64,000 nt of DNA from Treponema sp. (GCA_009781475.1 WQYB01000002.1:1-64000), one strand, 5' to 3'; positions 1-48,472 are shown, numbered from the stretch's first letter. Numbers and translations: made by a program. Notes: generated by a model not told the origin, from the sequence alone.

Positions 1-158
1 AATGGAAAGTGCTCTAAACCGTCAAGTGTTCTTAGAAAAGAAACAGCAGCAACGCTTAAAACGAATATTAATCCAAGTATAAAACGTACCTTGTTTATCA
101 GTTTTTCACCTTCGTATTCGTCTTTAGTGATTTTTTCATTAATTTCCAAATTAGTCAT
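1..158 (-). CDS. Partial membrane sensor, N-terminal part only
   Basis: The ATG at 158-156 is preceded by AGAGGT at good spacing, and the frame stays open to the window edge. The 52 visible residues hold a charged N-terminus followed by a membrane segment (LGLIFVLSVAAVSFL). They align without gaps to the N-terminus of the receptor at 4312-5844: both share a GEKL motif, then a hydrophobic helix ending in S-F-x-R, then a G-x-x-H-x-P motif. It is therefore probably a paralogue using the same multi-span membrane sensor region, and it follows the cyclase gene by 22 bp in the same operon. Its output domain lies outside the window, so whether it is another chemoreceptor or a different enzyme cannot be said. 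Confidence 0.7.
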   Translation of the reverse strand, partial: MTNLEINEKITKDEYEGEKLINKVRFILGLIFVLSVAAVSFLRTLDGLEHFP

Positions 159-180
159 AATTTACCTCTTTGTTTTATTT

Positions 181-2079
181 CTATTTATCAGTTAAAGTTA
201 TAACTCCATCCCAATTATCAGGCGGTGGATTATTTTCATAATTATTTACTCTTTCAATATACAATTTAGAAAGAAAATCATTGCTATCTGCTTCAAGAGC
301 TTTTGTAAAATATTCCCTTGCAAGTTTCCATTCACGCATATAAAAAACCTGAAGCCCTTTATTGTAATTAATCAGTGTTTCCCTATTAATTAATAATGCA
401 GAAACAGATGGCAATTCGATTAAATCGCCTGATCGCAGTTTATTTCCGTCAGTACCCTTAAAACCGGAATGTACAGCATAAATACCTACAGGTTTATTTT
501 TACCTTTTACACGAACATTGTCGATTTTCCTGAATAAGAATTTATCTTTAGCCGCTTCGTGTACATTTTCTGTTACAATTACCGGATAACGGTAAACTTT
601 TGAAAGACTTTCTACACGAGAAGCCAAATTTACGGTATCTCCGATTATTGTAAAATCCATTTTGTTCTGAAAACCAATATTACCTAAAATACATTCGCCG
701 CAGTTTATTCCGATGCCTATTTCTATTTTTTCTTTTGACAAAATTGAACCTTCATCGTTTATAACTTCCATTGCTGCTATCATTTTTACTGCCGCTCTGA
801 TGGCATTTTCCGGAGAATTATCAAGAGTTTGAAAAGCTCCAAAAACAGCCATGATAGCATCTCCGATAAATTTATCAATATGACCGCTTTCTGATAATAT
901 TTCGTTTCCCATCTTTGAAAAATATGTATTCAAAAAATCTACAACGCTTTGAGCGTCAGATTTTTCAGAAAGATCCGTAAAATCTCTTATATCGCTGAAA
1001 AGAACAGAAATATTCCTGTTTTCACTCATCTGCGCTTTTCTGTATGTATCGCTTATTATTTCATCCATTACGTCAGCAGGTACATAACGGGCGAACGCAA
1101 TGCGGGTATTTTTTTGAAGTTCGTTTATTTCAAACATGGAAAGAGCGTTAGCGATAACCGGAGCAGCAGCGCCGCAGAATACATTAATATTTTCCATGAT
1201 AATGGGTGAAAAATAATCGTTTAAGGTATTTGCAATATGAATTGTAGCGAAATTATCTCCGGCTATTGTTAAAGGTAAAGATACATAAGATACAATATTT
1301 TTTTCATTATTTCCGTTAGAGTTAAAATTTACTGTATTATTGGATGTAAATTTATAATCTGTAAAAATATTATTAAAATCTGACATGCAAATGCCGGAAA
1401 AATTATCGGATATTTCTTTTGTAAAGCCGCTGAAATTTGATGAGTATGTATACAAGATTCTATTGTTTCCGCGTATTAATAAAGAAACAATTTCAGTTTC
1501 ACATACAGTACGAAGAAGATCAAAAATACCGTTTGCTACCATTTCCATGGAATGAACTTTGCTTGACAGTTCAGTTAAAAGACCGATAATAGTTGTTTGA
1601 AATAATTTATTGTCCAAAAGATTATTTACAATTTCTATTATCGAATCATTATTAATTTTTTTACTTTCACGTTCAATTGCTTTAAAATCAATTTCTTGGG
1701 AAGAAGAAAGAATTTCATCTGCAGATTTTAATAAAGGAGCAAGGTTATCAGGTGATTTTTCGATATAAAGATCAGCTCCTGCCTGGCTGCCCCAAAATTT
1801 ATCTTTTGTTTCATCTAATGATGTAAACATTATAACAGGAATTGTTTTGGTATTTTTACGTGATTTTAATAGTCTTGTTACCTGATAACCTTTAAAAAGA
1901 GGCATTTCAATATCTGTTATTATAAGATGGGGAAGAAATGAATAAACTTTTTTTATGCCTTCAAAGCCGTTTACGGCTCTTTCAATAATATATTTTGAAG
2001 TATCAAATGAAGTAATTAGCATATCTGCGAAAATATCAGAATCTTCAAGTATTAATATTCTTTTTTGCTCAACGTTCAT
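181..2079 (-). CDS. Response regulator with GAF and class III nucleotide cyclase domains
   Basis: Predicted output enzyme of the chemosensory operon. Residues 1-125 form a receiver domain with acidic pair E12/D13, phospho-acceptor D56 (TDIEMP), a Thr/Ser switch (FTS) and the EKS lysine. Residues about 150-320 look like a GAF domain. Residues about 350-530 form a class III cyclase: FSDIRDF carries the first metal Asp, DKFIGDAIMAVFG the second metal Asp and the purine-selecting Lys, and VNLASR the transition-state Asn and Arg. The second purine position is Thr (DFTIIGD), a pattern known in bacterial adenylate cyclases, so cAMP is the likely product. A TPR-like tail ends the protein. GGAGG precedes the ATG, and the first 11 bp overlap the end of cheA. 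Phosphorylation of D56 by the neighbouring CheA is an inference. Confidence 0.9.
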   Translation of the reverse strand: MNVEQKRILILEDSDIFADMLITSFDTSKYIIERAVNGFEGIKKVYSFLPHLIITDIEMPLFKGYQVTRLLKSRKNTKTIPVIMFTSLDETKDKFWGSQAGADLYIEKSPDNLAPLLKSADEILSSSQEIDFKAIERESKKINNDSIIEIVNNLLDNKLFQTTIIGLLTELSSKVHSMEMVANGIFDLLRTVCETEIVSLLIRGNNRILYTYSSNFSGFTKEISDNFSGICMSDFNNIFTDYKFTSNNTVNFNSNGNNEKNIVSYVSLPLTIAGDNFATIHIANTLNDYFSPIIMENINVFCGAAAPVIANALSMFEINELQKNTRIAFARYVPADVMDEIISDTYRKAQMSENRNISVLFSDIRDFTDLSEKSDAQSVVDFLNTYFSKMGNEILSESGHIDKFIGDAIMAVFGAFQTLDNSPENAIRAAVKMIAAMEVINDEGSILSKEKIEIGIGINCGECILGNIGFQNKMDFTIIGDTVNLASRVESLSKVYRYPVIVTENVHEAAKDKFLFRKIDNVRVKGKNKPVGIYAVHSGFKGTDGNKLRSGDLIELPSVSALLINRETLINYNKGLQVFYMREWKLAREYFTKALEADSNDFLSKLYIERVNNYENNPPPDNWDGVITLTDK

Positions 2080-4321
2080 TTACACCTCCGATTAGCTGCT
2101 GTACATTTTCAATTAAATTATTATTATTAAATGAATTTTTTAGTATATACCGGGAGGCTCCGAGACTAAATGCGCGTTTTTGCTCTTCATCATTGGCAAT
2201 GGAAGATATAACAATAATCGGTATTTTAGACAATTCTTCGTTCTTTTTTAAATTTTCAATAAGCATAAACCCGTCCATTACAGGCATATTTAAATCTGTA
2301 CAGATTAAATCATATTGTTTTTGCTTGGCAGCTTTTAGAGCCTGCGCTCCGTCTGCTGCTGTATCAACATAATATCCTTCCGATTGAAGAATTTCACTTT
2401 CAATTTCACGGGTGGGAAGAGAATCATCAACAACCAAAATTGATTTTCTCAGTTTTTCATATTCGATATTACGTTTTTTAATGTCCAAAGCCTTGATTCT
2501 TTTTGCCATTTTTATAACTGTCGGAATATGTAAAACACTTACCATTTCATAATCTTCATTTAGTACGATACCGGAAAACACATTAATATTTTCCATAAAT
2601 GCTGGCATTGTTTTAAGGATAACAGATCTCATTGAATCGATGTTATCAACTGCTAATGCGGCGATGTCATCGTAAGAACGGATGATAACTATAAAAAGTA
2701 TATCATTAGGTGAAATTATATCTTCCTTAATTTGCAGTATTTGGCTTAAATAATATAATTTTATTATTCGATCGTTGTATTTAATCTCGGGACGATCAAC
2801 AACTGTAATAATATCTTCACGGTTTAAAAGAAGTATATTATCGACAAAGTTGGAAGGTATTATAAAATTAATTCCTGCGCATACAACCGGAAATCCCATT
2901 AAAGCGGCTATAGATAAAGGAACCATAATTGTGAAAGTAGTGCCTTCACCCTGAGTGCTTTCTACAACAATACTTCCTTTTAATGCTTCAACGCTTTCAC
3001 GGACAACATCCATTCCAACGCCTCTTCCGGAAACATTACTTACATTACCTGACGTAGAAAATCCGCTTTGAAAAATGAAGTTTGTAAGATCTTCTTTTGA
3101 AAGGCCGGCTGCAGCAGCTTCTGCGATAAAACCTTCCCTTACGGCTTTTTGTCTTATTTTTTCATGATCAATACCTCTGCCGTCATCGCAGATCATAATC
3201 TTCATACTTCCGCTTTCACGGGAACATATTATGGATAGTTTTCCTGCTTCATTTTTACCGCATGCGATACGTTCCTGAGGTTGTTCGATACCGTGATCAA
3301 TTGCGTTACGAACCATGTGCATAATAACTTCAGATAATGATTCGATTATATTTTTATCTATTTCATTTTCTTTGCCTTCGATGGAAAGCTGAACATTTTT
3401 ATTTAATTCTTCCGATAAATGATATATATAACGCGGATAACTGTCAAAAATTGTAGAAATGGGAAGGGTACGCAGTGATATTACGCTGTCATAAGCTCCT
3501 CTTACATGATTTCCTGCGTCTATTGCGTAATTTCTTAATGAAGATGATAGTTTTTCACTTGATCTTTCAATTTTTCTGAATTCAGAAGATAAAACCGGAT
3601 CAAGTTTTGCAATTTCTTTTAATTTTTTTGAAAAAACTTTTATATTACTTGTAATTGATGCGCTGTCCTGTGAAATACTTTTAGCTGAAATTTCCAAAAC
3701 TTGTAATGAAGCGATACTTTTAATAATTCCGTCAATTTTATCAAGAGAAAGACGGATTGATTCTGATTTTGCTTCTTTTTGTTTTTTAGATTTTAAAATA
3801 GCGTTTATTTGCTCTTGATCCATAAGTTCATCAGATGAATCATCATTTTCTATATTTTCTGTTTGCTCTTTTTCCTTTACTGATAATTGGAAAGATGTTT
3901 CAGTGCCGGTATTTGATTTAGGAATTGTAAATTCTTCATTTGAGGAAACCAAATTCAAATTCTTTACAAATTCATTTACATCTATATCATCGTTTTTTGT
4001 TTGTAATAATTCTACAAAGCCGGATTTTAATAAGTCTAAAGAAGACAGAACCAGTTTGACAATATTTTCTGAAAAACCGATTCTCTGTTCTCTTAAAGCT
4101 ACAAAAACATTTTCCAAAGAATGAGTTAATTCTTCCAAACGCTTAAATTCGAGCATTCTCGATGATCCTTTAAGCGTATGTAAAGCTCTCAATACAGTAG
4201 CAAGATCATCATCTACGGATATACCGTCTTTTATATCAAAAACCAAAGATTCGACAAGGCTGATATTCTCAAGACCTTCGTCAACAAATTTCCTGATATA
4301 TTTTTCTTTATCTATTGCCAT
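2069..4321 (-). CDS. cheA: Hybrid chemotaxis histidine kinase CheA with C-terminal receiver
   Basis: Autophosphorylating kinase of a chemoreceptor array. An Hpt domain comes first, with H48 in LHTLKGSSRM. A P2 response-regulator docking domain is not evident; a charged linker (about 115-190) occupies its place. The dimerisation helices follow, then the ATPase core with N box (MVRNAIDHG), G1 (DDGRGID) and G2 (GRGVGMDVV), a CheW-like P5 domain, and a full receiver at about 625-745 (VVDDS, TDLNMP, ISS, K). The C-terminal receiver is typical of WspE/FrzE/PilL-like kinases, not of the flagellar CheA. It overlaps the receptor upstream by 10 bp and the cyclase gene downstream by 11 bp, which implies tight coupling. 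The fused receiver may be a phosphate sink or an adaptation site. Confidence 0.95.
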   Translation of the reverse strand: MAIDKEKYIRKFVDEGLENISLVESLVFDIKDGISVDDDLATVLRALHTLKGSSRMLEFKRLEELTHSLENVFVALREQRIGFSENIVKLVLSSLDLLKSGFVELLQTKNDDIDVNEFVKNLNLVSSNEEFTIPKSNTGTETSFQLSVKEKEQTENIENDDSSDELMDQEQINAILKSKKQKEAKSESIRLSLDKIDGIIKSIASLQVLEISAKSISQDSASITSNIKVFSKKLKEIAKLDPVLSSEFRKIERSSEKLSSSLRNYAIDAGNHVRGAYDSVISLRTLPISTIFDSYPRYIYHLSEELNKNVQLSIEGKENEIDKNIIESLSEVIMHMVRNAIDHGIEQPQERIACGKNEAGKLSIICSRESGSMKIMICDDGRGIDHEKIRQKAVREGFIAEAAAAGLSKEDLTNFIFQSGFSTSGNVSNVSGRGVGMDVVRESVEALKGSIVVESTQGEGTTFTIMVPLSIAALMGFPVVCAGINFIIPSNFVDNILLLNREDIITVVDRPEIKYNDRIIKLYYLSQILQIKEDIISPNDILFIVIIRSYDDIAALAVDNIDSMRSVILKTMPAFMENINVFSGIVLNEDYEMVSVLHIPTVIKMAKRIKALDIKKRNIEYEKLRKSILVVDDSLPTREIESEILQSEGYYVDTAADGAQALKAAKQKQYDLICTDLNMPVMDGFMLIENLKKNEELSKIPIIVISSIANDEEQKRAFSLGASRYILKNSFNNNNLIENVQQLIGGVNER

Positions 4322-5844
4322 ATATCTTTTCCGGTGTTTATTTTATTTTTTATCAATGATTCAAGTTGTTGCATCAATTGAACAAGCTCTTCAGCAGATG
4401 ATGTTACAACTCTTGTTGATTGAATAAAGTTCGTAAGTCCGCTGGCGATATCTGTTATGGCGATGTTAATTTGTTTTGTTGATTTTTGCTGTTTTTGGCT
4501 TGATATTGTTATTGTCTGTGCCTGATTTGCTGTTACTTCGGCTCCATTTCGAATTTCCCTGAAAATATTTTCCAGTTCTTTTATTAAGTTGTTGCCCTGA
4601 TTAATTTTGATGGAACTTTCTTTACTGGATTTGATTAATGAAGTTGAGGAGTTTTGAATATCATTTGCCTGTTTACGAATTTCTTTTGTAAGAGCGGAAA
4701 TATCATCAGCAAGACGGTTAACTTCGGTTGAAACTACAGAAAAACGTTTGCCGTGTTCACCTGCACTGGCAGCTTCCAGTGCAGCGTTAAATGCAATTAC
4801 TTTTGTTTGATCGGTAATTGCGTTAATTGTTTCGATAATGTCGTGTATTTTTGTTATTTTATTTCCCAGTGTATTAATACCGGAAATAACATCGTCATTT
4901 TTGTTTTTTATCTCTTCAAATTGCCCTACATTCTGTTCAAGTAAGTTAAACCCGAGATTTACATCATTCTCCATTTTTGTCGCAATAGATGAAACACTTG
5001 AAGTTTTTTCTGCTATTTCGATGGCTATTTGAGTGTTTTCATTTATCGTACTTTCAATTTCCTGAACACTTGCTGCCTGATTGTTTGCAGTAGAAAAAAT
5101 TTCTTTGGAAGATGAAAATATTTTATCTGTAGTATTTTGAATGGTAACAGCCATACCTTGAGTTTGTTCATCTGTTTTTGCTGCAGCTTCTGCCGCTTTG
5201 CTGTGTGTATTTACATAAGTGCTGAAAAGTGAAATGTGGCGTTTGCAGGCAAAACCGGTGATAGTTCCTGCTATTATAATACCGAAAATATGAAACAATT
5301 CGTTGTAAAGCGGAAAACGGAAAGTTACTACATTAGAATTAATAACAGCCGAGTAAGGAAGGTCGAGTGCACTGCCGTTAGCAAAAATAACAACCAATAA
5401 ACAAATACCTGCATATATACCTGAAATAACAGAACAGCGCACGCTGAACCTGAAAGCTCCAAGCAAAATAAGCATTATATAAAACTGAATTTGAATGGAA
5501 AGATAAATGATAGGAGGGCATACTTCAGGATAAGTGCACGTAACCCATATACAGGCGCTGATACAGGTCATGTCAATAATTACAAATATATATTTAAATG
5601 TACTGTGAAGTTTTTCTCTTTTCCGTAAAATTAAAAATAGGAAAATTGAGTATATAAAAAAGATTACAGTGCTGTAATGAGCCCGCATGGGAAGATGTCC
5701 GTAGCCTTCCATATCTCTTACAAACGAAATTGCAGGCAGACTGAGTAAATAAATAGCAGAAAGCATTAAACGGAAAACACTTATCAGTTTTTCGCCTTTT
5801 GAATCATCAAGGTTAATTTGGTCTTTAAAATTTCTACTGTTCAT
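4312..5844 (-). CDS. Chemoreceptor with six-span membrane sensor region
   Basis: Methyl-accepting chemotaxis protein without a periplasmic ligand domain. About six hydrophobic segments fill residues 22-205, and a cytoplasmic coiled-coil signalling domain fills the rest. The hairpin tip departs from the usual consensus: it reads DQTKVIAFNAALEAASAGE where most receptors have Q-T-N-L-L-A-L-N-A-A-I-E-A-A-R-A-G-E. The membrane region suggests sensing of a membrane or intracellular state, but no ligand can be named. SD AAGGAT lies in front of the ATG. It is the second of two receptors in the operon, and its membrane half is shared by the partial gene at the left window edge. Confidence 0.92.
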   Translation of the reverse strand: MNSRNFKDQINLDDSKGEKLISVFRLMLSAIYLLSLPAISFVRDMEGYGHLPMRAHYSTVIFFIYSIFLFLILRKREKLHSTFKYIFVIIDMTCISACIWVTCTYPEVCPPIIYLSIQIQFYIMLILLGAFRFSVRCSVISGIYAGICLLVVIFANGSALDLPYSAVINSNVVTFRFPLYNELFHIFGIIIAGTITGFACKRHISLFSTYVNTHSKAAEAAAKTDEQTQGMAVTIQNTTDKIFSSSKEIFSTANNQAASVQEIESTINENTQIAIEIAEKTSSVSSIATKMENDVNLGFNLLEQNVGQFEEIKNKNDDVISGINTLGNKITKIHDIIETINAITDQTKVIAFNAALEAASAGEHGKRFSVVSTEVNRLADDISALTKEIRKQANDIQNSSTSLIKSSKESSIKINQGNNLIKELENIFREIRNGAEVTANQAQTITISSQKQQKSTKQINIAITDIASGLTNFIQSTRVVTSSAEELVQLMQQLESLIKNKINTGKDIWQ

Positions 5845-5853
5845 AAATAATCC

Positions 5854-7797
5854 TTATTTTTCAGTTGTGTATTTCATTAAAGTTTCTTTTAACTCTAATG
5901 ACATATTGTTAAGTTTATCTACAGCGGCAGATGTCATATTGGTAGCTGATACAAACTGGTTAACGCCGGTAGATATTTCTTTTAATGCTGTAAACACTTG
6001 AGCAGAAGCATATTCCTGCTGTTTGCTTAAGCTGGATATTTGCTGAGAACGTATTGCGACATTCTGAGAAACATCAACAATGCTTTCAAAGACTTCTTTT
6101 TGTTCAACCATCCTGTTATAACCTGTATCAATGGCTTGTGTTCCGCTGTTTGCTTCTGTTAAAAGAGTCTTTGACGCTTCCTGTAATTCCGATATTTTTT
6201 CTTTTATTTCAGATGCTGATGCTACAACGTTATCTGCAAAACGCCTGATTTCGCTTGCTACAACTGAAAAACGCGATCCTGCTTCGCCGGAAGATGACGC
6301 TTCCAATGTCGCATTAAAAGCTATAAGTTTTGTATGGTCTGCAATAGTATCAATAAGCAGAATTGATTCATCAATTCTGGAAAGCATGTCTGTAAGGTTT
6401 CTTATAATATCGATTATTTTTGCATTTTGATTGCGTATATCGAGCATCATGTCTTCATTAACATCACGAAGATCAGCTCCTCTTCGGCTTAGTTCCTGGG
6501 TTTGCGCAGCAAGGGACGCAACTTCTTCTGTTTTTTCCGATGCTTGAGCAGTAAGATTTTTGTTGTTTTCCATTGTGCTGATAATTTCTGCTACGCTGGC
6601 TGATTGTTCGTTTGCTGTTGTTGTTATTTCTATTGCTGAGGTTGACAGTTCCAATACAGCAGATGATACCATCGAAGTATTACTGTTAAACGCATTAAAT
6701 GTTGATTTTAACCTTGTTAAAAAAACATTCATAGCATTCATTAAATCACCCATTTCATCATTGGATACAGCATTAAGCTGTACGTTAAGATCATTGTTAT
6801 TAAGCTGTTTGAATATTTTAAGAATATCCTTTAATGGGCGGTTCAGCATGAAATATGTAAAAATAATTGAAATGCCGATTGAAACTGCAAAAATTAAAAC
6901 GAATAAAAGAATTATATTCCAAAGGATATTATTGGGTTCGGCATAAATAGCGGAATCAGGCGTCATGGAAACTAGCTGCCAGTTCGCATAAGGTACTGTT
7001 GCTGCAAAAAAATTATAATTGCTTTCCTGAAAATGAAGAGTATCATATAAAAGAACTCTTTCGTAATATTGTTCAATATTTTTTTCTGCAAAGAAATTAT
7101 CTAACATTATTTTTTGCTGGTTTGGATTGGTTATGTACAAACCTTTATTGTTAAGGAGAAATATTTGCTGCTCCGGGAAAACCAGAGTACGGTTTATTTC
7201 TTCATTAAGTTTTGTAACAAGCATATCCACAGCTATTACTCCGATGTCCCTGCCTTGTCCGTCAAATACAACTCTTGATATGGAAATGATAGTTTCGCCT
7301 GTTTTTGCATCAAGGAAAGGTTCAGAAAAAGCTATATTACCAGCAGCTTCTTTTGCATTTATAAACCAGGGACGAACTCTTTGATCCCATTCTTCGTACT
7401 CAGGTATCCAAACAGGACTTGCTATCCAGTAACCGCCGCTTTCATTCCATTTATTATTACTGGAAAAATACAATAAATCTATTTCCGGCATTTTATCTAT
7501 TAAATTACCAAAATAACCGGACATATCTTCTATATTGTTAAGCCCCTGATCAAATAATGCGCCTATTCCATAACTTGCATTGTCAAGCAAATCAGCATAC
7601 CTGTTCAGCATAGAAATTATTTCGCCCCTGAAATTTTCTATACTTTTTTCAACATTGGTTTTTGCCAGCGTATAACTTATCGAAAATAAATTATATAAAA
7701 AAATGGCTGAAAAAATACCGGTGTTAAGAACTATAATCAGAAGTACAACAAGCGTAAATTTTATTGTAAATGTAAATCTTATCTTTTTATTTTTCAT
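5854..7797 (-). CDS. Chemoreceptor with dCache sensor domain
   Basis: Transmembrane receptor. A first membrane helix (about 10-35) is followed by a periplasmic region of about 250 residues with dCache hallmarks: VRPWF, then SEPFLDAKTGE, then a V-I-A-V-D-M strand. A second helix lies near residue 295-320, then a HAMP-like stretch and a signalling domain. In the amino-acid-binding dCache motif, as I recall it from PctA-type sensors, the Arg, Trp and Asp positions are present but two Tyr positions read Trp and Phe, so amino-acid binding is possible but not secure. The hairpin tip (ADHTKLIAFNATLEASSSGE) shares the unusual TK-x-IAFNA core with its neighbour. I start at ATG 7797 with GAGG just upstream; a GTG two codons earlier is the alternative. 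Confidence 0.93.
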   Translation of the reverse strand: MKNKKIRFTFTIKFTLVVLLIIVLNTGIFSAIFLYNLFSISYTLAKTNVEKSIENFRGEIISMLNRYADLLDNASYGIGALFDQGLNNIEDMSGYFGNLIDKMPEIDLLYFSSNNKWNESGGYWIASPVWIPEYEEWDQRVRPWFINAKEAAGNIAFSEPFLDAKTGETIISISRVVFDGQGRDIGVIAVDMLVTKLNEEINRTLVFPEQQIFLLNNKGLYITNPNQQKIMLDNFFAEKNIEQYYERVLLYDTLHFQESNYNFFAATVPYANWQLVSMTPDSAIYAEPNNILWNIILLFVLIFAVSIGISIIFTYFMLNRPLKDILKIFKQLNNNDLNVQLNAVSNDEMGDLMNAMNVFLTRLKSTFNAFNSNTSMVSSAVLELSTSAIEITTTANEQSASVAEIISTMENNKNLTAQASEKTEEVASLAAQTQELSRRGADLRDVNEDMMLDIRNQNAKIIDIIRNLTDMLSRIDESILLIDTIADHTKLIAFNATLEASSSGEAGSRFSVVASEIRRFADNVVASASEIKEKISELQEASKTLLTEANSGTQAIDTGYNRMVEQKEVFESIVDVSQNVAIRSQQISSLSKQQEYASAQVFTALKEISTGVNQFVSATNMTSAAVDKLNNMSLELKETLMKYTTEK

Positions 7798-7809
7798 ATA
7801 CACCTCGTT

Positions 7810-9312
7810 TTATGTTAATTTTTTTTCAAGAATCCTTAAAAAGTAATCGGGAGAAAATCCTCCCATAAAACATTCGTAATTATGTTCACCTGTATGCTTT
7901 TGTTTTAATAATAATTCAATGCTTTCAATTGTTTTTTTAATTTTATATTCATGTCTGGTTTTATTGCCGTCAGATGTTAGGCAGGAAATTCTATAAAAAG
8001 CAGGCCAGAAAAATTTGTTTTTAATTGCTGCTTCATAATAATGTTTTTCGGCTTCTTCATAAATATTTTGTAAAAAATAATATTCTCCCCGTAAAAAATT
8101 TGTGTAAGGCGATGTATTATTTTTTTCCAAAAGTGATAAAATAATACCGGCTTTTTTAAAATCCTGTTTATTTAATAAATTCATAATACATGCTGCAAGG
8201 CTGCTTCCTGAAACAAGATTTATTTTATCGCTTTCCAATGCATTAATTACAGATTCGGTATTCTTTACACCTTCATCTGTTTTAATTATTTCAGTAATTT
8301 CTGCGCAATTTACAGATAAAGTTTCAGTTTTTTTTATAATATGTATTTTTTCATTATCAGTTTTTTCTGGTTTTAATTTAGTTTTGGTTTTAGTTTTAAT
8401 TTCTACAGTTTGTTTTTTAACTGGTTTAAATTCATATCCGGAATTAATACTTGTTTTTTGAAAATAAAAAACATCTGATGAAAAACGGTTTAAAAGAAGA
8501 GGATGATCTACTGATGCAGTTTCAGAAACTCCAAGGAAAAGAATTCCATTATTAAAAAGTGATTCAGCAAGATTATTTAATACAGACAGCCTGTTTTTTG
8601 TAGAAAAATAAATTAATGAATTTCTGAAAAATATTATATCATATTGTTTTTCAAGACCGCGCATAATATTATGGGAAAAAAAATGTACTTTACTGCGGAT
8701 ACTCTGCGATACTATAAATTCATTGTTATCAGGTATAATATATAAGTCCAGAATATGTTTCCAGGGAGTTATATCTGAACGTATAGTGTTTAATGTGTAT
8801 CTTGCGCTTTTTGCTGTTTCAATTGCATCTGCGTTTATATCAAAAGCGTCAATGGTAAAGTCAAAGTTATTTTCTTTTTTTGAATAATATTCAAGGAGCA
8901 TTGCTATACTATACGCTTCACATCCAATAGAAACAGCGGCACTGCATACTTTTAAAGGACGTCCTAATTTTGCAAAGTCAGGCAGCATATTTATTAATAA
9001 ATTAAAATGCGCTCCTTCCCTGAAAAAATAAGTTTCATTTATGGTTAAATATTTAGAGATATTATATATCTGCTCGCGGGATGTAAGCAGGTATTCATAA
9101 GCAGCAGGATTTTCAATAAATGAAGCGCCGCAATAATTTATAAGATAATTATTAAGATTTTTAAGGCCGTCGGCTGTTGCTTTTATTCCAAGTATTTGAT
9201 CAATGCGGTAATAAAGAAATAATAACGCAGGATTAGAAAGAACTTCCGCGGGAACATCAGAAATTAATTCGAAGGCATCTGTTGTTTTTAACAAAGGATC
9301 AGATGAAGGCAA
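7810..9312 (-). CDS. cheR: CheR-type receptor methyltransferase with TPR extension
   Basis: SAM-dependent methyltransferase expected to methylate receptor glutamates, opposing the adjacent CheB. The N-terminal helical domain carries TINETYFFRE, a CheR signature. The SAM fold follows, with a degenerate glycine motif (CSAAVSIGCEAYSIAM), the DINADAIETA acidic strand and an FFRNSLIYF segment. After about residue 290 comes a Lys/Thr-rich low-complexity linker (repeated K-T), then TPR-like helices (about 385-480). The TPR tail is the arrangement of WspC/FrzF-type CheR proteins. Start: TTG 9312, nine bases after AGGAGG. The low-complexity stretch near 8380-8400 is a short repetitive tract that could vary in length between strains. 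Confidence 0.92.
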   Translation of the reverse strand: MPSSDPLLKTTDAFELISDVPAEVLSNPALLFLYYRIDQILGIKATADGLKNLNNYLINYCGASFIENPAAYEYLLTSREQIYNISKYLTINETYFFREGAHFNLLINMLPDFAKLGRPLKVCSAAVSIGCEAYSIAMLLEYYSKKENNFDFTIDAFDINADAIETAKSARYTLNTIRSDITPWKHILDLYIIPDNNEFIVSQSIRSKVHFFSHNIMRGLEKQYDIIFFRNSLIYFSTKNRLSVLNNLAESLFNNGILFLGVSETASVDHPLLLNRFSSDVFYFQKTSINSGYEFKPVKKQTVEIKTKTKTKLKPEKTDNEKIHIIKKTETLSVNCAEITEIIKTDEGVKNTESVINALESDKINLVSGSSLAACIMNLLNKQDFKKAGIILSLLEKNNTSPYTNFLRGEYYFLQNIYEEAEKHYYEAAIKNKFFWPAFYRISCLTSDGNKTRHEYKIKKTIESIELLLKQKHTGEHNYECFMGGFSPDYFLRILEKKLT

Positions 9313-9314
9313 TA

Positions 9315-10319
9315 TTAATTTCCTCCTGTTAATAAAATAAGTTTTTGCGCTATTTCACCTAATGGAAGAACCAAATCTACGTTTCCTGTTTCCACAGCGG
9401 CAGCCGGCATACCGAAAATCATGGAAGTAGCTTCATCTTGTGCAATTGTTAAACCGCCTGATTCTTTTATAAGTTTTGTACCTTCAGCGCCGTCATTACC
9501 CATTCCGGTTAATACAATACTAATAATTGAATTACCGTATTGAGCAGCTGCAGTTTTAAATAGAATGTCTGCGGCAGGTTTTTGATTATTAACAGGTTCG
9601 CCGTCATCAAAAGAAAGTCCTGCAGCTCCTATAGTCAGGTGTTTGTCTGTAGGAGCTACATAAACATTTCCTTTTAAAGGAAAAACACCTTCTTCTGCAA
9701 GCTGTACTTTTAAATGAGAATAACCGTCTAGCCATTGGACAAATCCTTTGTCAAATCCGGAAGTATTATGCTGAACAAGTATTATAGGAACGGGGAAAGA
9801 AGGCGGAAGTCCCGAGCATAACTGACAGAGTGCCATAGGACCACCTGTTGAAGATGCAATAACAACACAATTAATTTTATGCGCTGCCGCAGTGATATTA
9901 TTTTTTGTACCTTGTACAGAAACTGTTTTATTTTTTATTTTAATTATTTGCTTTAAAGTACTGAATATTTCGCAGCGCTGCCTTTCAGTCATTTGTGATG
10001 TGAAAATATCCTTTGCAAAGAATTCATGAGCGCCTTTAACAGTAGCTTCGTAAGCCATTTTTGCAGTATCATGAGTGCTTATAACGACAATACCGCAAGA
10101 ACTGAACTTTCTTATTTCAACAATGGCTTCAAGTCCATTCATTACAGGCATTTCAAAATCCATGGTAATTAAATCGGGATTAAGTTCTCTTGCTTTGTTT
10201 ACGCCGTCAGATCCGTTTTCAGCTTCGCCTATTATTTCAAAAGATCCTTCGCCTTGCAGAAAGTCTTTAAGAATTTCTCTGACAACAGAGCTGTCATCTA
10301 CAATTAATGTTTTAATCAT
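9315..10319 (-). CDS. cheB: Chemotaxis methylesterase CheB
   Basis: Response-regulator-controlled receptor demethylase and deamidase. Receiver domain: D8/D9, phospho-acceptor D54 (TMDFEMP), STHDT switch and K in FAKD. After a linker comes the catalytic domain with Ser in ASSTGGP, His in VQHNTSGF and Asp in TGMGNDGAEG, all three catalytic residues present. Length 334 is normal for the family. Its ATG overlaps the stop of the upstream CheW-like gene (ATGA), with AAGGA as the ribosome site inside that gene. With CheR-TPR it forms the adaptation pair for the two receptors downstream. Confidence 0.96.
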   Translation of the reverse strand: MIKTLIVDDSSVVREILKDFLQGEGSFEIIGEAENGSDGVNKARELNPDLITMDFEMPVMNGLEAIVEIRKFSSCGIVVISTHDTAKMAYEATVKGAHEFFAKDIFTSQMTERQRCEIFSTLKQIIKIKNKTVSVQGTKNNITAAAHKINCVVIASSTGGPMALCQLCSGLPPSFPVPIILVQHNTSGFDKGFVQWLDGYSHLKVQLAEEGVFPLKGNVYVAPTDKHLTIGAAGLSFDDGEPVNNQKPAADILFKTAAAQYGNSIISIVLTGMGNDGAEGTKLIKESGGLTIAQDEATSMIFGMPAAAVETGNVDLVLPLGEIAQKLILLTGGN

Positions 10320-10777
10320 ATCTTTTCCTTTTTAACATATTGAATTAATTGATTTGGATTGAGTAAAAGAATTAAATCGCCGTTTGATTTATTTGTATAT
10401 TCAAAATTAAATAAAAAACCGTTAAATATATCTGAAAAGAGGAGGGTACTGAATGCTTTAGGTAAAGAATAAAAGTTTCCATCAGGTATTTCTACTTCGC
10501 TGTCAATTTCTGTGGTAAATAAAACTATATTTTCATCATTAATTTTATTAAGGATAATTCCATGACGGACATTTGCATTGGAGCAATCAAAAATTACGGG
10601 AAGAGAAACATATACATTATTATTTTCAGTATTATTATAAATAAAACTACCGTCAGAAAAAGTCTGTTGATTGAATTTTAAATCTTCTTTTGATAACAAA
10701 AAAACGGAGGATATATTTTCCATTGGGATTGCCAGCGAAAAACCGCTGTCAGCGTAAGAACAAAGAAAAACACGCAT
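10316..10777 (-). CDS. CheW-like adaptor, divergent
   Basis: Short protein of about 153 residues with the alternating beta-strand pattern and late position of a CheW adaptor, though diverged: it begins RVFLCSYADSGFSLAIPMENISSV, which corresponds to the first CheW strands, and it ends in a strand-helix LLLNPNQLI. I chose ATG 10777, one base after the stop of the upstream cheW; a GTG at 10801 would add eight residues but has no ribosome site. Two CheW-type adaptors in one operon is the WspB/WspD arrangement. The assignment rests on fold pattern and context more than on conserved residues. Confidence 0.7.
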   Translation of the reverse strand: MRVFLCSYADSGFSLAIPMENISSVFLLSKEDLKFNQQTFSDGSFIYNNTENNNVYVSLPVIFDCSNANVRHGIILNKINDENIVLFTTEIDSEVEIPDGNFYSLPKAFSTLLFSDIFNGFLFNFEYTNKSNGDLILLLNPNQLIQYVKKEKI

Positions 10778-10778
10778 A

Positions 10779-11234
10779 TTATACCGAATCCTGGACAGCA
10801 CAGTTTAAAATACGATAAATATCAAGTACAAAAACATTATTATCATCCCAATCAAATGAAGAAGCTACAGCGTCGGTTATATCATTAGAATCATGGCTTC
10901 TTTCCATTGAAACAATTGAATCAGGATTTATTTCCGCTATGCCTGTTACATCATCAATAACAATTGCGATTTTATCAATTTTATCTTTAAAAATAAGAAC
11001 TTTTTTATGAGGGGTGGGTGTGTTGTAGAGTAAAAGACCAATATCAAATAAAGCATAAGGAACAGAGTATCTGTTTACTACCCCAAGTATATATGACGGC
11101 AAAAGCGGCAGCGGATAAACAGTATCAAACATTGAAATTTCGCTGATATGGCGGGATGGAAAACTGTATAATTTATCATTTATGGAAAAAACAAGGTATT
11201 TTTCTGTATAAGTACTTTCTACCGAATCTGACAT
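10779..11234 (-). CDS. cheW: CheW adaptor protein
   Basis: Couples receptors to CheA. A 151-residue CheW domain: KYLVFSINDKLYSFPSRHISEI at the start, PLLPSYILGVVNRYSVPYALFDI in the middle (typical P-x-x-I-x-G-x-x-N-x-R block), and KIAIVIDDVTGIAEI later. A strong GGAGGATTA precedes the ATG. It is the first gene of the chemosensory operon; the 42 bp between it and the DinG-like gene are AT-rich and could hold a -10 (TATACAAT at about 11260-11267, minus strand), but no good -35 was seen, so the operon promoter is not assigned. Confidence 0.88.
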   Translation of the reverse strand: MSDSVESTYTEKYLVFSINDKLYSFPSRHISEISMFDTVYPLPLLPSYILGVVNRYSVPYALFDIGLLLYNTPTPHKKVLIFKDKIDKIAIVIDDVTGIAEINPDSIVSMERSHDSNDITDAVASSFDWDDNNVFVLDIYRILNCAVQDSV

Positions 11235-11276: not shown

Positions 11277-13394
11277 TTAATATAAGAAGTTTTCTATATC
11301 TTTAATAATATTATTCAATTCGCTGAAACTAGTTTTAGTTTCCGGAAGAGATTGTAAAAATAATTGTCCGTAGGATTTTTTAAACAGGCGGCCGTCTAGA
11401 ATAACAACTATACCGCTGTCCTGGCTTTTGCGCATAAGCCTGCCAAAACCCTGTTTAAACTTCATTATAGCCTGGGGTAAAGAAAGTTCCAAAAATGAGT
11501 TTTTATTTTGTTTTTCAATCAATTCACGGCGGGCTTCAAATACAGGGTCGCCGGGCATTCGGAAAGGAAAACGGCAGATTATAACCAGTTTTAAGGTATC
11601 ACCGGGCGCGTCAATTCCTTCCCAAAATGAATCAGTGGCGAAAAGACATGAACTTTCATCAGAAAGAAAGATTTGCAAAAGACGGGTGCGATCATCATCT
11701 CCCTGTTTTAAACAGCGGATTCCCATAGGTTCAAGTTCGATTTTTGCCGCATTATATGCGCTGTTTAAGGACTGGTACGAAGTAAATAAAACAAGCGCTG
11801 CCCCCTGACTAACCTCTAAAAGTTTACTTACAGCCTTATTAACAAAGAGCTGATATTCATCTTCATCCGGTAAAGGAGCGTCAGATGGAGCCGCCAAAAG
11901 AACATTACTGGAGTAAGGAAAAGGAGAGGGAAAACAATCTGAAAGAAGATTGCGATTTTCTGTAAGAGTTATTCCGCACTGATTTGCCCAATAGGAAAAA
12001 TTGTTGTTTATAGCCAGCGTCGCAGAAACGCATACGACCGTTTTATTGGGAGAAAAAACACTGTCTTTTAATAATGGAGCTAAATCCAAAGGAGTTTTTG
12101 TAAAAACAACCCAGGAATCTTTTGATGATTGTGATTTTGAAGAACGTATTTTTTCGATCCATAAGACATTTTCTAAGACATTTTCTAAAACTTCGTTTTT
12201 TGGTTTTTTATATTTACAAAAAGAATCGCAAATATTTGCAGCGCTTTCCAATCGTTTAATAATGGTTTTAATCTCCCAAACAACAGGATCAGCAGATTTT
12301 TCATCATTTAAATTTTCAATAATATCCCGGATTAAATTAGTAAGGCTTAGTATATCTTTGCGAAAAGTTTTTAAATACGGAAAAAACGCTTTTTTTAAAA
12401 ACGCTTCATCAACAGCAGGCGAAAGCCTGAATATCCATTCCGGTCCGCATAACTGCATCGCATGTTCATCGAGTTCGTCCATTGATTTGCGGATTTTATT
12501 AATTGCTTCAATTAATTCATCTAAAGGTTCCAATGCAGACGGCAGCATTGCACAAAGTTTTAATAAAAGTCCATGCTGATTCGCTCTGCGTTTATGGTAA
12601 AGTCTTCCTAGCTGTTTATATATACCTATTTTTGAAAACTCTGAAGAAAAAAATGAAGTTGCGGCATTTTCAATTGTATGAGCTTCGTCAATTATTAAAC
12701 GGTTAAAAGGCGGCAGAACAACAGCGTTTTCATAACCGGCTCCGTTATAACGAGCTGCTAAATCAGCGAAAAGTAAATGATGGTTTACAACGATAATATG
12801 AGCATTACTTGCTTCTTTTCTAAGTGTTATAATAAAACACTTTTCAATCCATGGACAGTGATTTCCTAAACATAAATCAGATTCTGAACAGATACTTGAC
12901 CATACAGTTTCTGATGGCATGAAACTAAGATCTGCTTTTGCTCCTGTTTTTGTTGTTTGCGCCCATTTTGCAATATTATTTAATTCTCCGCTGTCAAAAT
13001 CAAAAAGAGGCGGTTCTTTTATACTGTCATCAAGCCTTCTTAGGCATAAATAATTTCCTCTGCCTTTCATAATCACAGATTTAAGTTTTTTATTTTGTTT
13101 GTTGTCTGATTCATCTGTTGTCAGGCTTGATTCAACAAGAGGAATATCTTTTTCAAATAACTGCTGCTGCAGTGTAATTGTTGCGGTTGATATTACAACT
13201 TTTTCTTTATTTAAAAGCGCGTGATGAACCGCAGGCAGAAGATATGCAAACGATTTTCCCACACCTGTTCCGGCTTCTGCCATAACAAGTGCATCTTCGT
13301 TAAAACCCTGTATAATAAGAGAAAGAAGATCCAATTGCGCTTTACGCGGTTCATAAGAAGGCAGACGGTTTGCGACAGAGCCGCCGTCACACAA
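11277..13394 (-). CDS. dinG: DinG/XPD-like superfamily 2 DNA helicase
   Basis: ATP-dependent 5'-3' helicase of the iron-sulfur XPD/DinG group. Walker A is AEAGTGVGKSF, the DEAH box is IIDEAHTIENAA, and a cysteine set (CLRR; CSESDLCLGNHCPWIEKC) fits the 4Fe-4S site. Motif VI is RLMRKSQDSGIVVILDGRL. The N-terminus is odd. TTG 13394 is the only standard start but has no ribosome site, while the frame stays open upstream, where AGGGGAGGG (13445-13453) sits eight bases before an in-frame ATC at 13436. The extra 14 residues continue naturally into the conserved GG-x-x-x-x-x-LPSYEPR segment, so initiation at ATC is plausible. A 12-bp tandem repeat near 12173-12193 encodes ENVLENVL. Confidence 0.88.
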   Translation of the reverse strand: MCDGGSVANRLPSYEPRKAQLDLLSLIIQGFNEDALVMAEAGTGVGKSFAYLLPAVHHALLNKEKVVISTATITLQQQLFEKDIPLVESSLTTDESDNKQNKKLKSVIMKGRGNYLCLRRLDDSIKEPPLFDFDSGELNNIAKWAQTTKTGAKADLSFMPSETVWSSICSESDLCLGNHCPWIEKCFIITLRKEASNAHIIVVNHHLLFADLAARYNGAGYENAVVLPPFNRLIIDEAHTIENAATSFFSSEFSKIGIYKQLGRLYHKRRANQHGLLLKLCAMLPSALEPLDELIEAINKIRKSMDELDEHAMQLCGPEWIFRLSPAVDEAFLKKAFFPYLKTFRKDILSLTNLIRDIIENLNDEKSADPVVWEIKTIIKRLESAANICDSFCKYKKPKNEVLENVLENVLWIEKIRSSKSQSSKDSWVVFTKTPLDLAPLLKDSVFSPNKTVVCVSATLAINNNFSYWANQCGITLTENRNLLSDCFPSPFPYSSNVLLAAPSDAPLPDEDEYQLFVNKAVSKLLEVSQGAALVLFTSYQSLNSAYNAAKIELEPMGIRCLKQGDDDRTRLLQIFLSDESSCLFATDSFWEGIDAPGDTLKLVIICRFPFRMPGDPVFEARRELIEKQNKNSFLELSLPQAIMKFKQGFGRLMRKSQDSGIVVILDGRLFKKSYGQLFLQSLPETKTSFSELNNIIKDIENFLY

Positions 13395-24175: not shown

Positions 24176-25144
24176 ATGAAAATGAAAGTATTATTTTTAG
24201 TTATTTCAGTAATTCTTGTCAGCAATGCTGCTGTTTGGGGGCAAGTTAATCCGCTGTCGGTTCATATCGAAAAAGCTATAAATCACATAATGGATGATCA
24301 ATATGATCTTGCTATTAAAGAGTTAAGCGAAGCTATCAATATAGAACCCGGTTTTGAATTAATTTATTTATTCCGGGGAGAAGCATATCGGGCTATGGGG
24401 CAGTATGATTTGGGGTTAAGGGATCTTAACGAAGCGATAAAATTGAATAGTAGTTTTGTAAGCGCTTATATCAGCAGAGGCGATACATTTCGCATGATGA
24501 ATCAATTTGATGCTGCAATCAGGGATTTAAATACTGCTATAAGGCTTCACCCTAATGATTACTTAGCTTATGGCGTTAGAGGTTCGATATATCATGATCA
24601 TAGCCAGTATGATTTAGCATTGCGTGATTTCAATGAATCCATAAGACTTGATCCTGAAAATGCTCAAGTTTATTCTGTAAGAGGTTCTGTTCATTGGAGG
24701 CAAGGAAGATATGATTTAGCCTTAATCGATTTAAATCATGCAGCCAGAGCCAATCCTGATGATTCTTATGCGTTTTTAAACCGCGGTATAGTTTATCTAA
24801 GAACAAACCAGTTAGAACTTGCGGTAAGGGATTTAAATGAAGTAATCAGAATTAACAGCGACAGAATAAAATCCAATAGAAGTGCTGCCTGGAACTATTC
24901 AAACAGGGGAGAGGCTTACAGATTATTGGAACAATTCGATAACGCTATCGAAGATTTTAATGAATCACTTATTCAAAGAAGTGATGACGGTTCATCATGG
25001 ACTTACGGAAGGCGTGGATTGGCATACATGGCAATCGGACAAAGGGAACTTGCGATAAGTGATTTTCAAATGGCTCTAAGTATGAACCCCACACTTGATT
25101 GGGTTATCACAGCACTTGAAGAAATACGCGGGTCTTTACAATGA
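24176..25144 (+). CDS. Secreted TPR protein, copy 1
   Basis: 322 residues: a signal peptide (VLFLVISVILVSNAAVWGQ) and about eight tandem 34-residue TPR units (for example YDLGLRDLNEAIKLNSSFVSAYISRGD). It is probably a periplasmic or surface protein-binding scaffold; no catalytic motif is seen. No Shine-Dalgarno precedes the ATG, while TATTAT lies seven bases upstream, so translation may be leaderless. Its last codons overlap the next gene (ATGA), a close paralogue from tandem duplication: the C-terminal blocks MALSMNPTLDWVITAL and MALSTNPTLDWVIAAL are nearly identical. Confidence 0.85.
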   Translation: MKMKVLFLVISVILVSNAAVWGQVNPLSVHIEKAINHIMDDQYDLAIKELSEAINIEPGFELIYLFRGEAYRAMGQYDLGLRDLNEAIKLNSSFVSAYISRGDTFRMMNQFDAAIRDLNTAIRLHPNDYLAYGVRGSIYHDHSQYDLALRDFNESIRLDPENAQVYSVRGSVHWRQGRYDLALIDLNHAARANPDDSYAFLNRGIVYLRTNQLELAVRDLNEVIRINSDRIKSNRSAAWNYSNRGEAYRLLEQFDNAIEDFNESLIQRSDDGSSWTYGRRGLAYMAIGQRELAISDFQMALSMNPTLDWVITALEEIRGSLQ

Positions 25145-26112
25145 AAATTAAATTTATATTATTTTTTGCAGTAATAATCATTTTAGGTAATTCTGCTGTT
25201 TGTGGGCAGGGAAATCCAAGAACCGCAGAAGATTTTTTTTACCGCGCGTATGAATATTACTTTGATGGTCAATATGAGCAGGCAATAAAAGATTTCAGTG
25301 AATCTATAAGATTAGAACCTGATATACCATATGCATATCATGGCAGAGCTAATGCTTACAGTATGCTTGATCAAAAAGATATGGCAATAAGGGATCTGAA
25401 TGAAGCTATCAAATTAGATAATAGTTTTACGGATGCTTATATAGATAGAGGCGATATCTACCGTGTATTGAACAGGTTTGATTTGGCAATCAGGGATTTG
25501 AATGAAGCCGTTAAAATTGAACCTGATTATTATTATGCTTACGGAGTAAGAGGAGCGGTATATCACGATCAAAGTAATTATGAAATGGCACTGCGTGATT
25601 TTAATGAAGCTCTAAGACTTGAACCTGATTTTTCATGGGTCTATGCAGTTCGCGGATCTGTATTATGGAGATTAGGTAATTATGAAGCAGCTCTAAATGA
25701 TTTATCTGAGGCTATCAGTATCGATCCTGAAGATTCATACGCATTTTTAAACAGGGGAACGGTTTATCAAAGATTAGGTCAGCAGGAAGAAGCAATCAGA
25801 GACTTAAATGAAGTAATAAGACTTAATAGTGAAGATATAAAATACAACAGCAGTTTTGCCTGGTATTTTTCAAACAGGGGAGAGGCTTACAGATTATTGG
25901 GAGAATATGAAATTGCAATCGAAGATTTTAACGAATCAATAAGATTAAGAAACGATTATGCTTCTTCCTGGACTTACGGCAGGCGGGGATTAGCATACAT
26001 GGCATTGGGGCAAAGAGAACTTGCGATTAGTGATTTTCAAATGGCTCTAAGTACGAACCCCACACTCGACTGGGTGATAGCAGCATTACAGGATTTACAA
26101 AGAAATAATTAA
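25141..26112 (+). CDS. Secreted TPR protein, copy 2
   Basis: Paralogue of the preceding gene: signal peptide (ILFFAVIIILGNSAVCGQ) followed by the same series of TPR units in register, 323 residues. Translation is coupled through a 4-bp ATGA overlap. Identity to copy 1 is highest in the last three repeats (SNRGEAYRLL, SWTYGRRGLAYMA, GQRELAISDFQMALS) and lower near the start, which is what unequal divergence or partial gene conversion would give. No function beyond protein binding can be inferred. Confidence 0.85.
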   Translation: MKIKFILFFAVIIILGNSAVCGQGNPRTAEDFFYRAYEYYFDGQYEQAIKDFSESIRLEPDIPYAYHGRANAYSMLDQKDMAIRDLNEAIKLDNSFTDAYIDRGDIYRVLNRFDLAIRDLNEAVKIEPDYYYAYGVRGAVYHDQSNYEMALRDFNEALRLEPDFSWVYAVRGSVLWRLGNYEAALNDLSEAISIDPEDSYAFLNRGTVYQRLGQQEEAIRDLNEVIRLNSEDIKYNSSFAWYFSNRGEAYRLLGEYEIAIEDFNESIRLRNDYASSWTYGRRGLAYMALGQRELAISDFQMALSTNPTLDWVIAALQDLQRNN

Positions 26113-46847: not shown

Positions 46848-48472
46848 TATAACCCCAATGAATCGATGTAGTAGACCGCTCCTTGATATGAACCTCGAAT
46901 TAAGGCAGCCCAAAAAGAACGTCCAAGTCTTATTACATTTTCGGCATTTTCTGAAGAATTTGGAAGGGAAAAACCGGTTATTAAACGGACAGCATCAAGG
47001 ACTTCCTGAACAGTTCTACCCATGTAGTCAGTAAACCCTGATTGTTCGAATTCGGGAAAAGGAATTAGCTGGAAAGAAGAGTTCACACGGAGACACGGAG
47101 ACACGGAGTTCCCGTTCGATTGTTTTATTATTTCATCCGGTATTTGAGTAAGAACTTCTCTTAGTTTATCTGTTATCTGGAAAGCATCCGGTGGAAAACA
47201 TGAATCCCCTTTGCGCCTCTGCGCCTCTGCGAGAGTATTTTCCAGAAAATTCCTGGTTTCAATATCTGTTGGATCAAGTCTAATTAACACAGAGCAGGCG
47301 GCAGCTTGAGCAGCTTCAATCGCTGTTTTTCTTTCCTGAGCCGAAGCGATAATATTTCCGCATTTTGTTACATTATTTTCAGGGAACGTTACTTTATCAC
47401 CTTCTTTAATACGAAAGAAAAGATCATTTACATAAGGGATGCTTTTTACATCTTTTGTGTAAATAATTTCTTTAACAATACCGGGTATCGAAATGAATGC
47501 TCTTTCAGCGCAAGTCCATTTTTTTACAGGTTCTAGACAGTCAGGTTTTTTGCCCATCGCCGCTTGTATTGCCGCTTTTATGGGTAGGACTCCTGATGAA
47601 TACGGATAAGTCCACCCCGACATATAACCGCCTGAAAGCCGCGCTGCAATTTCACCTATCATTGCACCTTTTGATGTTAACTTGATGTCTCCCTTGGCGG
47701 CTCCTATATTATTTTCTGCGTTAAGACCAAGCGCTTTAACTCCTTTACAAAATGTATCAAGTAACGCTTTTTGTTTTTCTTCGTCGATTTCAGTCGGCAT
47801 TGTATGTCCCATTTCAATAAAATACGGAGGGAAAAATATGTGTCTGTCGGCAAGACCGCAGATTGTTATTTCGCCGTGATAATAAATTGCATCAACTGAA
47901 AATTCAGGACCGTCCATGAATGATTCGATAATTGCACGCCCTGAACGTGAAAAGCCAATCGCAGTTTTTGCCGCTTCTTCAAATTCATCGATACTGTCAA
48001 TTCGTCTGCATCCGCGGCTTCCCATATTGTCAACAGGTTTTACAACAAGCGGGAATTGTAAGTAATCAGGAATTAAAAACGATTCATTTGATATAACCGC
48101 AAATGGCGGGGAGGGAAGACCTGTTTTGTCAAAACAGCTTCGCATACGGGATTTGTCTGAAGCATTAAGCGCAGTTTCGTAAGGAATACCGGGAAGCTGT
48201 AATTTTTCTGCTACCCATGCAACACTTGCAGAAAAATCCGTTCCTGCTGTCATAATACCCAAACGGTTTGTTTTATTTTGTAATGATTTAGCAAAACTTT
48301 CAATTTCTTCTTTTTCTTTTAGATCGATTTTTTCAAATCTGTCTGCAAGTGTTATACAAGGAGCGTTAGAGCTGCCGTCAAGTACGATTGTGTATAAACC
48401 CATTTGTTTTGCAATATTTATCGCAGGACCCTGCATGACCCCCGCACCTAGAATAATGATAACTTTTTTCAT
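46847..48472 (-). CDS. ATP-grasp carboxylate-amine ligase family protein
   Basis: 541 residues. N-terminal Rossmann-like PurK/CarB-type fold (VIIILGAGVMQGPAINIAKQMGLYTIVLDG), then an ATP-grasp domain (FPLVVKPVDNMGSRGCRRI; IIESFMDGPEFSVDAIYY; GEIAARLSGGYMSGW) and a C-terminal extension of about 150 residues with no recognised fold. It joins a carboxylate to an amine using ATP; the substrate is unknown. Two repeat fragments are translated in the extension (AEAQRRKGDSC from family C and SVSPCLRVNSS from family A). It is part of the spiro-SPASM operon, so it may finish the small molecule made by the upstream genes. Confidence 0.82.
   Translation of the reverse strand: MKKVIIILGAGVMQGPAINIAKQMGLYTIVLDGSSNAPCITLADRFEKIDLKEKEEIESFAKSLQNKTNRLGIMTAGTDFSASVAWVAEKLQLPGIPYETALNASDKSRMRSCFDKTGLPSPPFAVISNESFLIPDYLQFPLVVKPVDNMGSRGCRRIDSIDEFEEAAKTAIGFSRSGRAIIESFMDGPEFSVDAIYYHGEITICGLADRHIFFPPYFIEMGHTMPTEIDEEKQKALLDTFCKGVKALGLNAENNIGAAKGDIKLTSKGAMIGEIAARLSGGYMSGWTYPYSSGVLPIKAAIQAAMGKKPDCLEPVKKWTCAERAFISIPGIVKEIIYTKDVKSIPYVNDLFFRIKEGDKVTFPENNVTKCGNIIASAQERKTAIEAAQAAACSVLIRLDPTDIETRNFLENTLAEAQRRKGDSCFPPDAFQITDKLREVLTQIPDEIIKQSNGNSVSPCLRVNSSFQLIPFPEFEQSGFTDYMGRTVQEVLDAVRLITGFSLPNSSENAENVIRLGRSFWAALIRGSYQGAVYYIDSLGL
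47084..47110. repeat. Family A repeat fragment, in frame
   Basis: CACACGGAGACACGGAGACA-type tandem units inside the ATP-grasp gene; encodes about SVSPCLRV. Confidence 0.75.
47209..47237. repeat. Family C repeat, in frame
   Basis: TTTGCGCCTCTGCGCCTCTG followed by CGAGAG, inside the ATP-grasp gene; encodes about TLAEAQRRKG. Confidence 0.75.

Follow-up and report, generated by a model that had tools for sequence, protein, structure and literature searches.

A treponeme chemosensory operon with a receiver-linked class III cyclase as its predicted output

An eight-gene chemosensory operon in a draft Treponema sp. genome (3.29 Mb in 216 contigs) closes with a gene for a receiver-linked class III nucleotidyl cyclase and probably encodes a dedicated, non-flagellar pathway in which receptors act through CheA on the cyclase receiver and so change the level of cAMP. 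The operon lies at one end of the 64,000-nucleotide stretch of DNA that was analysed (the window), whose first base is also the start of contig C2. Second-messenger chemosensory systems mostly make c-di-GMP or, as in Pil-Chp, reach cAMP indirectly. If true, a direct connection between a receptor array and an adenylyl cyclase would offer a compact system for studying how arrays set cAMP, and a first way into cAMP signalling for the treponeme symbionts of the termite gut; furthermore, the mechanism can be tested directly on natural variants, including cyclases without the receiver aspartate, operons without the cyclase, and a receiver-GAF module carried by a hybrid kinase.

The sequence-only reading had placed two CheW proteins, CheB, CheR, two receptors, a CheA with a fused receiver, and a receiver-cyclase in a single operon of overlapping or nearly touching genes, and the gene calls bear this out: eight ORFs on the minus strand (window 11234-181), separated by gaps of -23 to +9 bp, agree with the Pfam and AlphaFold assignments (Table 1). 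The operon is real, a chance arrangement being excluded because the gene order is conserved across about 20 genera, and it is longer than first seen, since a ninth gene starts at position 158 and runs off the end of the contig. A GGAGG ribosome-binding-like site is present immediately 5′ of cheW1, and promoter and terminator scans scored barely above chance. A gene for a DinG-like helicase (window 11277-13394) is located directly upstream of the operon, 42 bp from cheW1, and a DinG-like gene occupies the same position in most clade A relatives.

Table 1. Genes of the chemosensory operon and the truncated receptor gene that follows it (window coordinates).
Gene or product	Position	Strand	Evidence
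cheW1, CheW adaptor	10779..11234	-	Pfam CheW E 2e-15
cheW2, second and divergent CheW	10316..10801	-	AlphaFold and Foldseek
CheB, receiver and methylesterase	9315..10319	-	Pfam CheB_methylest 1e-57, Response_reg 3e-23
CheR methyltransferase; conserved C-terminal region weakly TPR-like	7810..9312	-	Pfam CheR 2e-37
Receptor 1, dCache-HAMP-MCP, two membrane helices	5854..7803	-	Pfam; hydropathy
Receptor 2, six hydrophobic helices and MCP signalling domain	4312..5844	-	Pfam MCPsignal 3e-26; hydropathy
CheA, C-terminal fused receiver	2069..4321	-	Pfam Hpt-HATPase-CheW-REC
Output enzyme, REC - GAF-like - class III nucleotidyl cyclase - one weak TPR	181..2079	-	Pfam Response_reg 8e-17, Guanylate_cyc 6e-31
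Third receptor, first 52 codons, cut at contig end	1..158	-	Continued on contig C7

The core domains first named for these proteins stand, and two of the labels are softer. The C-terminus of CheR, read as TPR, gives weak TPR matches in eight of 12 orthologues (best E 0.003) and a match to an APC TPR subunit at E 5e-5. The linker of the cyclase, read as GAF, matches GAF_2 in four of 20 orthologues (best E 0.004); in its model, helices and strands succeed one another in a GAF-like order, and the listed matches of a structure search with the whole cyclase model are taken up by cyclases and receivers. For CheW2, no family was found in Pfam or NCBIfam and a profile comparison with CheW1 is weak (33% probability), and Foldseek aligns its AlphaFold model (pLDDT 88) with solved structures of CheW and of CheA P5 at E about 2e-6; CheW2 is therefore, as modelled, a protein of the CheW fold.

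In CheA, H48, the ATP-site boxes, and the receiver residue D676 are present and are invariant in 13 orthologues. Flagellar (F-class) clusters are recognised by a CheY or other motor regulator in the cluster and a CheA with a P2 domain; the operon has neither, as no CheY was found by ORF and Pfam analysis across its length and no Pfam match to P2 was obtained in its CheA. Two further CheA clusters are present elsewhere in the genome, each with its own CheW and with CheX or CheY, and flagellar control therefore need not use the operon CheA; from a reading of their sequences, the cluster on contig C89 has a CheX-like gene, and that on C43 has CheY, CheB, CheR, and a receptor. The hairpin tips of the operon receptors have the motif TK-x-IAFNA in common, whereas the C43 receptor has a tip of the TN-x-LALNA type, and this difference suggests a private array for the operon receptors. 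The domain content of the operon supports the REC-class III cyclase as the sole output-type regulator of a self-contained unit.

The cyclase receiver, first described as having all its phosphorylation residues, is intact in the window and nearly so throughout: E12 and K108 are each present in 47 of 47 distinct cyclases, and D56 in 45 of 47. The cyclase gene overlaps cheA by 11 bp in the window, and an overlap, usually of 8 bp, is found at each of the 43 named loci with upstream sequence on the contig, every one a treponeme or spirochaete record. Among 200 genomes of the family, the cyclase occurs in 57 (20 of 57 genera), the operon-type CheA in 56, and both in 54 (Fisher p about 1e-42, a nominal value that is too small given shared ancestry), and the association of the two is far beyond chance. 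Within the genus, 19 of 40 genomes encode a full or nearly full cyclase. Where contigs are of sufficient length, the core order cheW-cheW-cheB-cheR-receptor-receptor-cheA-cyclase is repeated, the few exceptions being loci without a recognised cheW2 or with an extra receptor, and one genome (G174) that has cheA and the cyclase only. A complete single-contig genome of 4,059,867 bp (G183) also carries the operon. A scan of 84,980 species' genomes, which used exact short peptides and could miss more distant relatives, returned 44 full or partial loci in treponeme or spirochaete records, nearly all of them metagenome bins with sample codes that we take to be those of termite-gut projects, and four further matches, three of them weak or partial and one in a bin labelled Tannerella. 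The last (L145, Tannerella sp., JAISYY010000299.1) is a Bacteroidales bin with a treponeme cyclase fragment, 58% identical, and is probably mis-binned. As far as searched, the operon set is confined to one family of treponemes.

The few genomes in which the pair is broken bear on whether CheA controls the cyclase at all. Cyclase-type matches without CheA occur in three genomes, of which G160 and G194 are contig fragments, and in the third (G080, L209 9073-11874) a hybrid histidine kinase, and not a cyclase, is joined to the receiver-GAF module. The same fusion is found in G081 (L210 2669-5521), which also has an operon-type CheA and whose contig stops soon after the fusion gene. CheA without the cyclase occurs in G007 (L238), where cheA is followed by a family 1 glycosidase gene, and in G039 (L237), where it is directly followed by a TonB receptor and Ton genes; both keep the che operon, which can therefore persist without a cyclase output. 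Furthermore, D56 is replaced by A or S in two cyclases (loci L129 and L139) that keep all cyclase residues and are among the more divergent orthologues of the genus (clade B), and phosphorylation is therefore not essential in every branch. These two enzymes, the cyclase-less operons, and a GAF-like domain placed where it could itself be the main input are what could be expected if the cyclase were co-transcribed but not under CheA control, its GAF-like domain binding a small ligand and the real output being the CheA receiver, CheB, or a regulator elsewhere. We regard this reading as unlikely, as the three receiver residues are kept almost without exception, cheA and the cyclase overlap at every locus where the junction is readable, and co-occurrence is near perfect. 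With no CheY in the operon, a conserved cheA-cyclase link, intact residues, separate clusters for the other CheA proteins, and distinct receptor tips, the data are most simply read as a private array that feeds the cyclase.

Receptor control of CheA autophosphorylation is a general property of this protein family, and the private array would work as follows. It would consist of two or three receptors, of which one has a periplasmic dCache domain and two a multi-helix membrane domain, together with the two CheW proteins and CheA, and the receptor state would set autophosphorylation at H48. Phosphate would then pass from CheA to three receivers: that of CheB, which would serve adaptation and be opposed by CheR; the C-terminal receiver of CheA itself, probably a sink or modulator; and that of the cyclase. 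Phosphorylation of D56 would change cyclase activity through the GAF-like linker, most likely upward, and the resulting change in cAMP would be read by the cyclic-nucleotide-binding proteins of the genome. Phosphotransfer, the direction and sign of control, cAMP as the product, and the ligand, regulon, and physiological role of the pathway are features that we infer.

The third receptor leads to a different set of neighbours. An overlap of 123 identical bases joins the end of contig C7 to the start of C2, and the receptor gene continues on C7 (G000:C7:66194-67663), with 93% identity to the receptor of the closest relative. By ORF calls and Pfam, it is followed by exbB, exbD, exbD, and tonB, receptor and Ton genes together occupying G000:C7:64093-67663 (equivalent to L091 12094-15664), with the receptor stop and the exbB start overlapping as TAATG. 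Ton genes follow the operon in eight of 11 clade A genomes examined, mostly as a stretch with a TonB-dependent receptor and an intervening 281-residue protein without assignment; a genome search found no counterpart of the relatives' TonB receptor in this genome, which has one canonical TonB receptor elsewhere, on contig C21.

It might thus be proposed that the unit controls or senses TonB-dependent uptake, with receptors, cAMP, and the ExbB-ExbD-ExbD-TonB motor forming one device, coupled to the only TonB motor of the cell, in which the array senses the arrival of nutrients, or the activity of Ton, at the outer membrane and adjusts cAMP to match. The overlap, the fact that no ExbD genes were found in the genome beyond the C7 pair, the recurrence of the order in clade A, and the retention of che and Ton genes together in G039 would all fit such a device, which we nevertheless consider quite improbable. 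Ton genes are as common in genomes of the genus without the cyclase (18 of 21) as in those with it (17 of 19; Fisher p 1, no association), dinG directly abuts a TonB receptor in G009, where the che block is absent and the two gene sets may merely share a locus, and operons elsewhere in the family, that of G183 for one, have no Ton genes beside them. In view of the equal frequencies and of the G009 junction, the Ton genes are treated as probably neighbours only, with co-regulation possible in this genome.

The private array of the preferred reading would deliver its signal through a catalytic domain in which six residues (D363, K403, D407, T477, N484, and R488) are invariant in 47 of 47 distinct cyclases. 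They make up the set expected of a class III adenylyl cyclase, comprising two metal-binding Asp, a purine-selecting Lys with Thr or Asp, and a transition-state Asn and Arg, and are of the ATP-specific Lys/Thr type. The best structural match of the cyclase model is Pseudomonas aeruginosa CyaB (3r5g; Z 22.4, rmsd 2.1 over 192 residues), an adenylyl cyclase that agrees with it at K403 and T477, whereas the guanylyl cyclase Cya2 has E and G at these positions. The cyclic-AMP output proposed at first reading is accordingly favoured by residue identity, and cAMP is a better prediction of the product than cGMP because K403/T477 match CyaB and not Cya2. Guanylyl enzymes do exist in class III and sequence cannot prove substrate choice, but cGMP or another nucleotide as the product has a very slight probability against a purine-selecting pair kept in every orthologue. 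The genome encodes 11 class III cyclases, given which the operon enzyme may add little to the total cAMP pool. Cyclic-nucleotide-binding domains occur at nine places in the genome, none linked to the operon, and are possible cAMP readers. Among them, two consecutive cyclic-nucleotide-binding genes with GGDEF-like regions are located upstream of the C43 chemosensory cluster (G000:C43:3587-4829; L095, L100), where cross-talk from cAMP to c-di-GMP is possible.

Among known systems, the operon had been likened to the parts list of Wsp (Pseudomonas WspABCDEF and WspR), with another output enzyme. As an analogy of components this holds: a receptor, two CheW, CheB, a CheR with an extra C-terminal region, and a CheA-receiver are all encoded in one self-contained operon with a receiver-cyclase as output. 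The likeness does not extend to gene order, output enzyme, or receptor number. Wsp is defined by its output regulator, either WspR (REC-GGDEF) or, in Burkholderia, WspH (REC-histidine kinase) (PMC8552884), whereas the treponeme operon has a REC-class III nucleotidyl cyclase in place of the GGDEF enzyme. The order is W-W-B-R-MCP-MCP-A-cyclase in the operon and MCP-W-R-W-A-B-R in the plasmid Wsp clusters used as references (Mesorhizobium pMLb, L229; Cupriavidus L232 and L234, by BLAST), and two or three receptors stand against one in Wsp. The hybrid-kinase fusions of G080 and G081 are a natural output swap reminiscent of that between WspR and WspH. In a CheA tree with plasmid-borne Wsp references and long branches, the operon CheA forms its own deep clade (100/100) on a long stem, with support of 25/0.7 for a union with Wsp and other unions not rejected; given its long branches, the tree speaks neither for nor against kinship with WspE. 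Nothing in the analysis ties the operon to surface sensing. By what is a good analogy and not a family assignment, the operon would work like Wsp with an exchanged output enzyme.

By its traits, the operon would be an alternative cellular function (ACF) pathway. ACF systems have a multidomain response regulator, no CheY, and a CheA often with REC and without P2 (PMC3447774, PMC10782961), and the operon displays all of these. The CheY-AC architecture was named by Galperin in 2005 (PMC1183210), and mononucleotidyl cyclases are among the REC-fused outputs listed for CheR-TPR chemosensory clusters in a 2012 survey (PMC3447774), so that the kind is already known. The same survey reports CheR-TPR in Chloroflexi, Cyanobacteria, and Proteobacteria, and spirochaetes go unmentioned in its text. 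Among open-access papers, nothing was found on the operon in Treponema or termite symbionts, and subscription journals could differ; the lineage-wide, tightly linked version is new.

Pil-Chp of P. aeruginosa (ChpA, PilG, and CyaB) resembles the operon in that it puts a class III adenylyl cyclase under a CheA-type kinase, as is predicted for the treponeme enzyme, and its CyaB is the closest solved cyclase domain. In Pil-Chp, control is exerted via PilG, a separate CheY-like protein, and ChpA has many Hpt-type domains (PMC5812489), whereas in the operon the receiver is fused to the cyclase and encoded beside cheA, and CheA has one Hpt. For the proposed receiver gate, cyanobacterial CyaC is a precedent, in which phosphotransfer to the receiver activates a class III cyclase (Kasahara and Ohmori, 1999, as cited in PMC1183210). 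The treponeme enzyme would place such a gate under an array. CyaC has its own histidine kinase and is not known to be part of a receptor array.

Two further features of the window lie outside the operon. Dispersed CACGGAGRCACRGAG-type repeats are found at 47086-47108, 47217-47231, and 61138-61213 (nine matches versus 0.4 expected), some of them inside reading frames, where they add peptides such as HGDTENTEKK. Furthermore, two adjacent TPR proteins that resemble each other, with 322 and 323 residues, are encoded at 24176-26112, apparently by tandem duplication.
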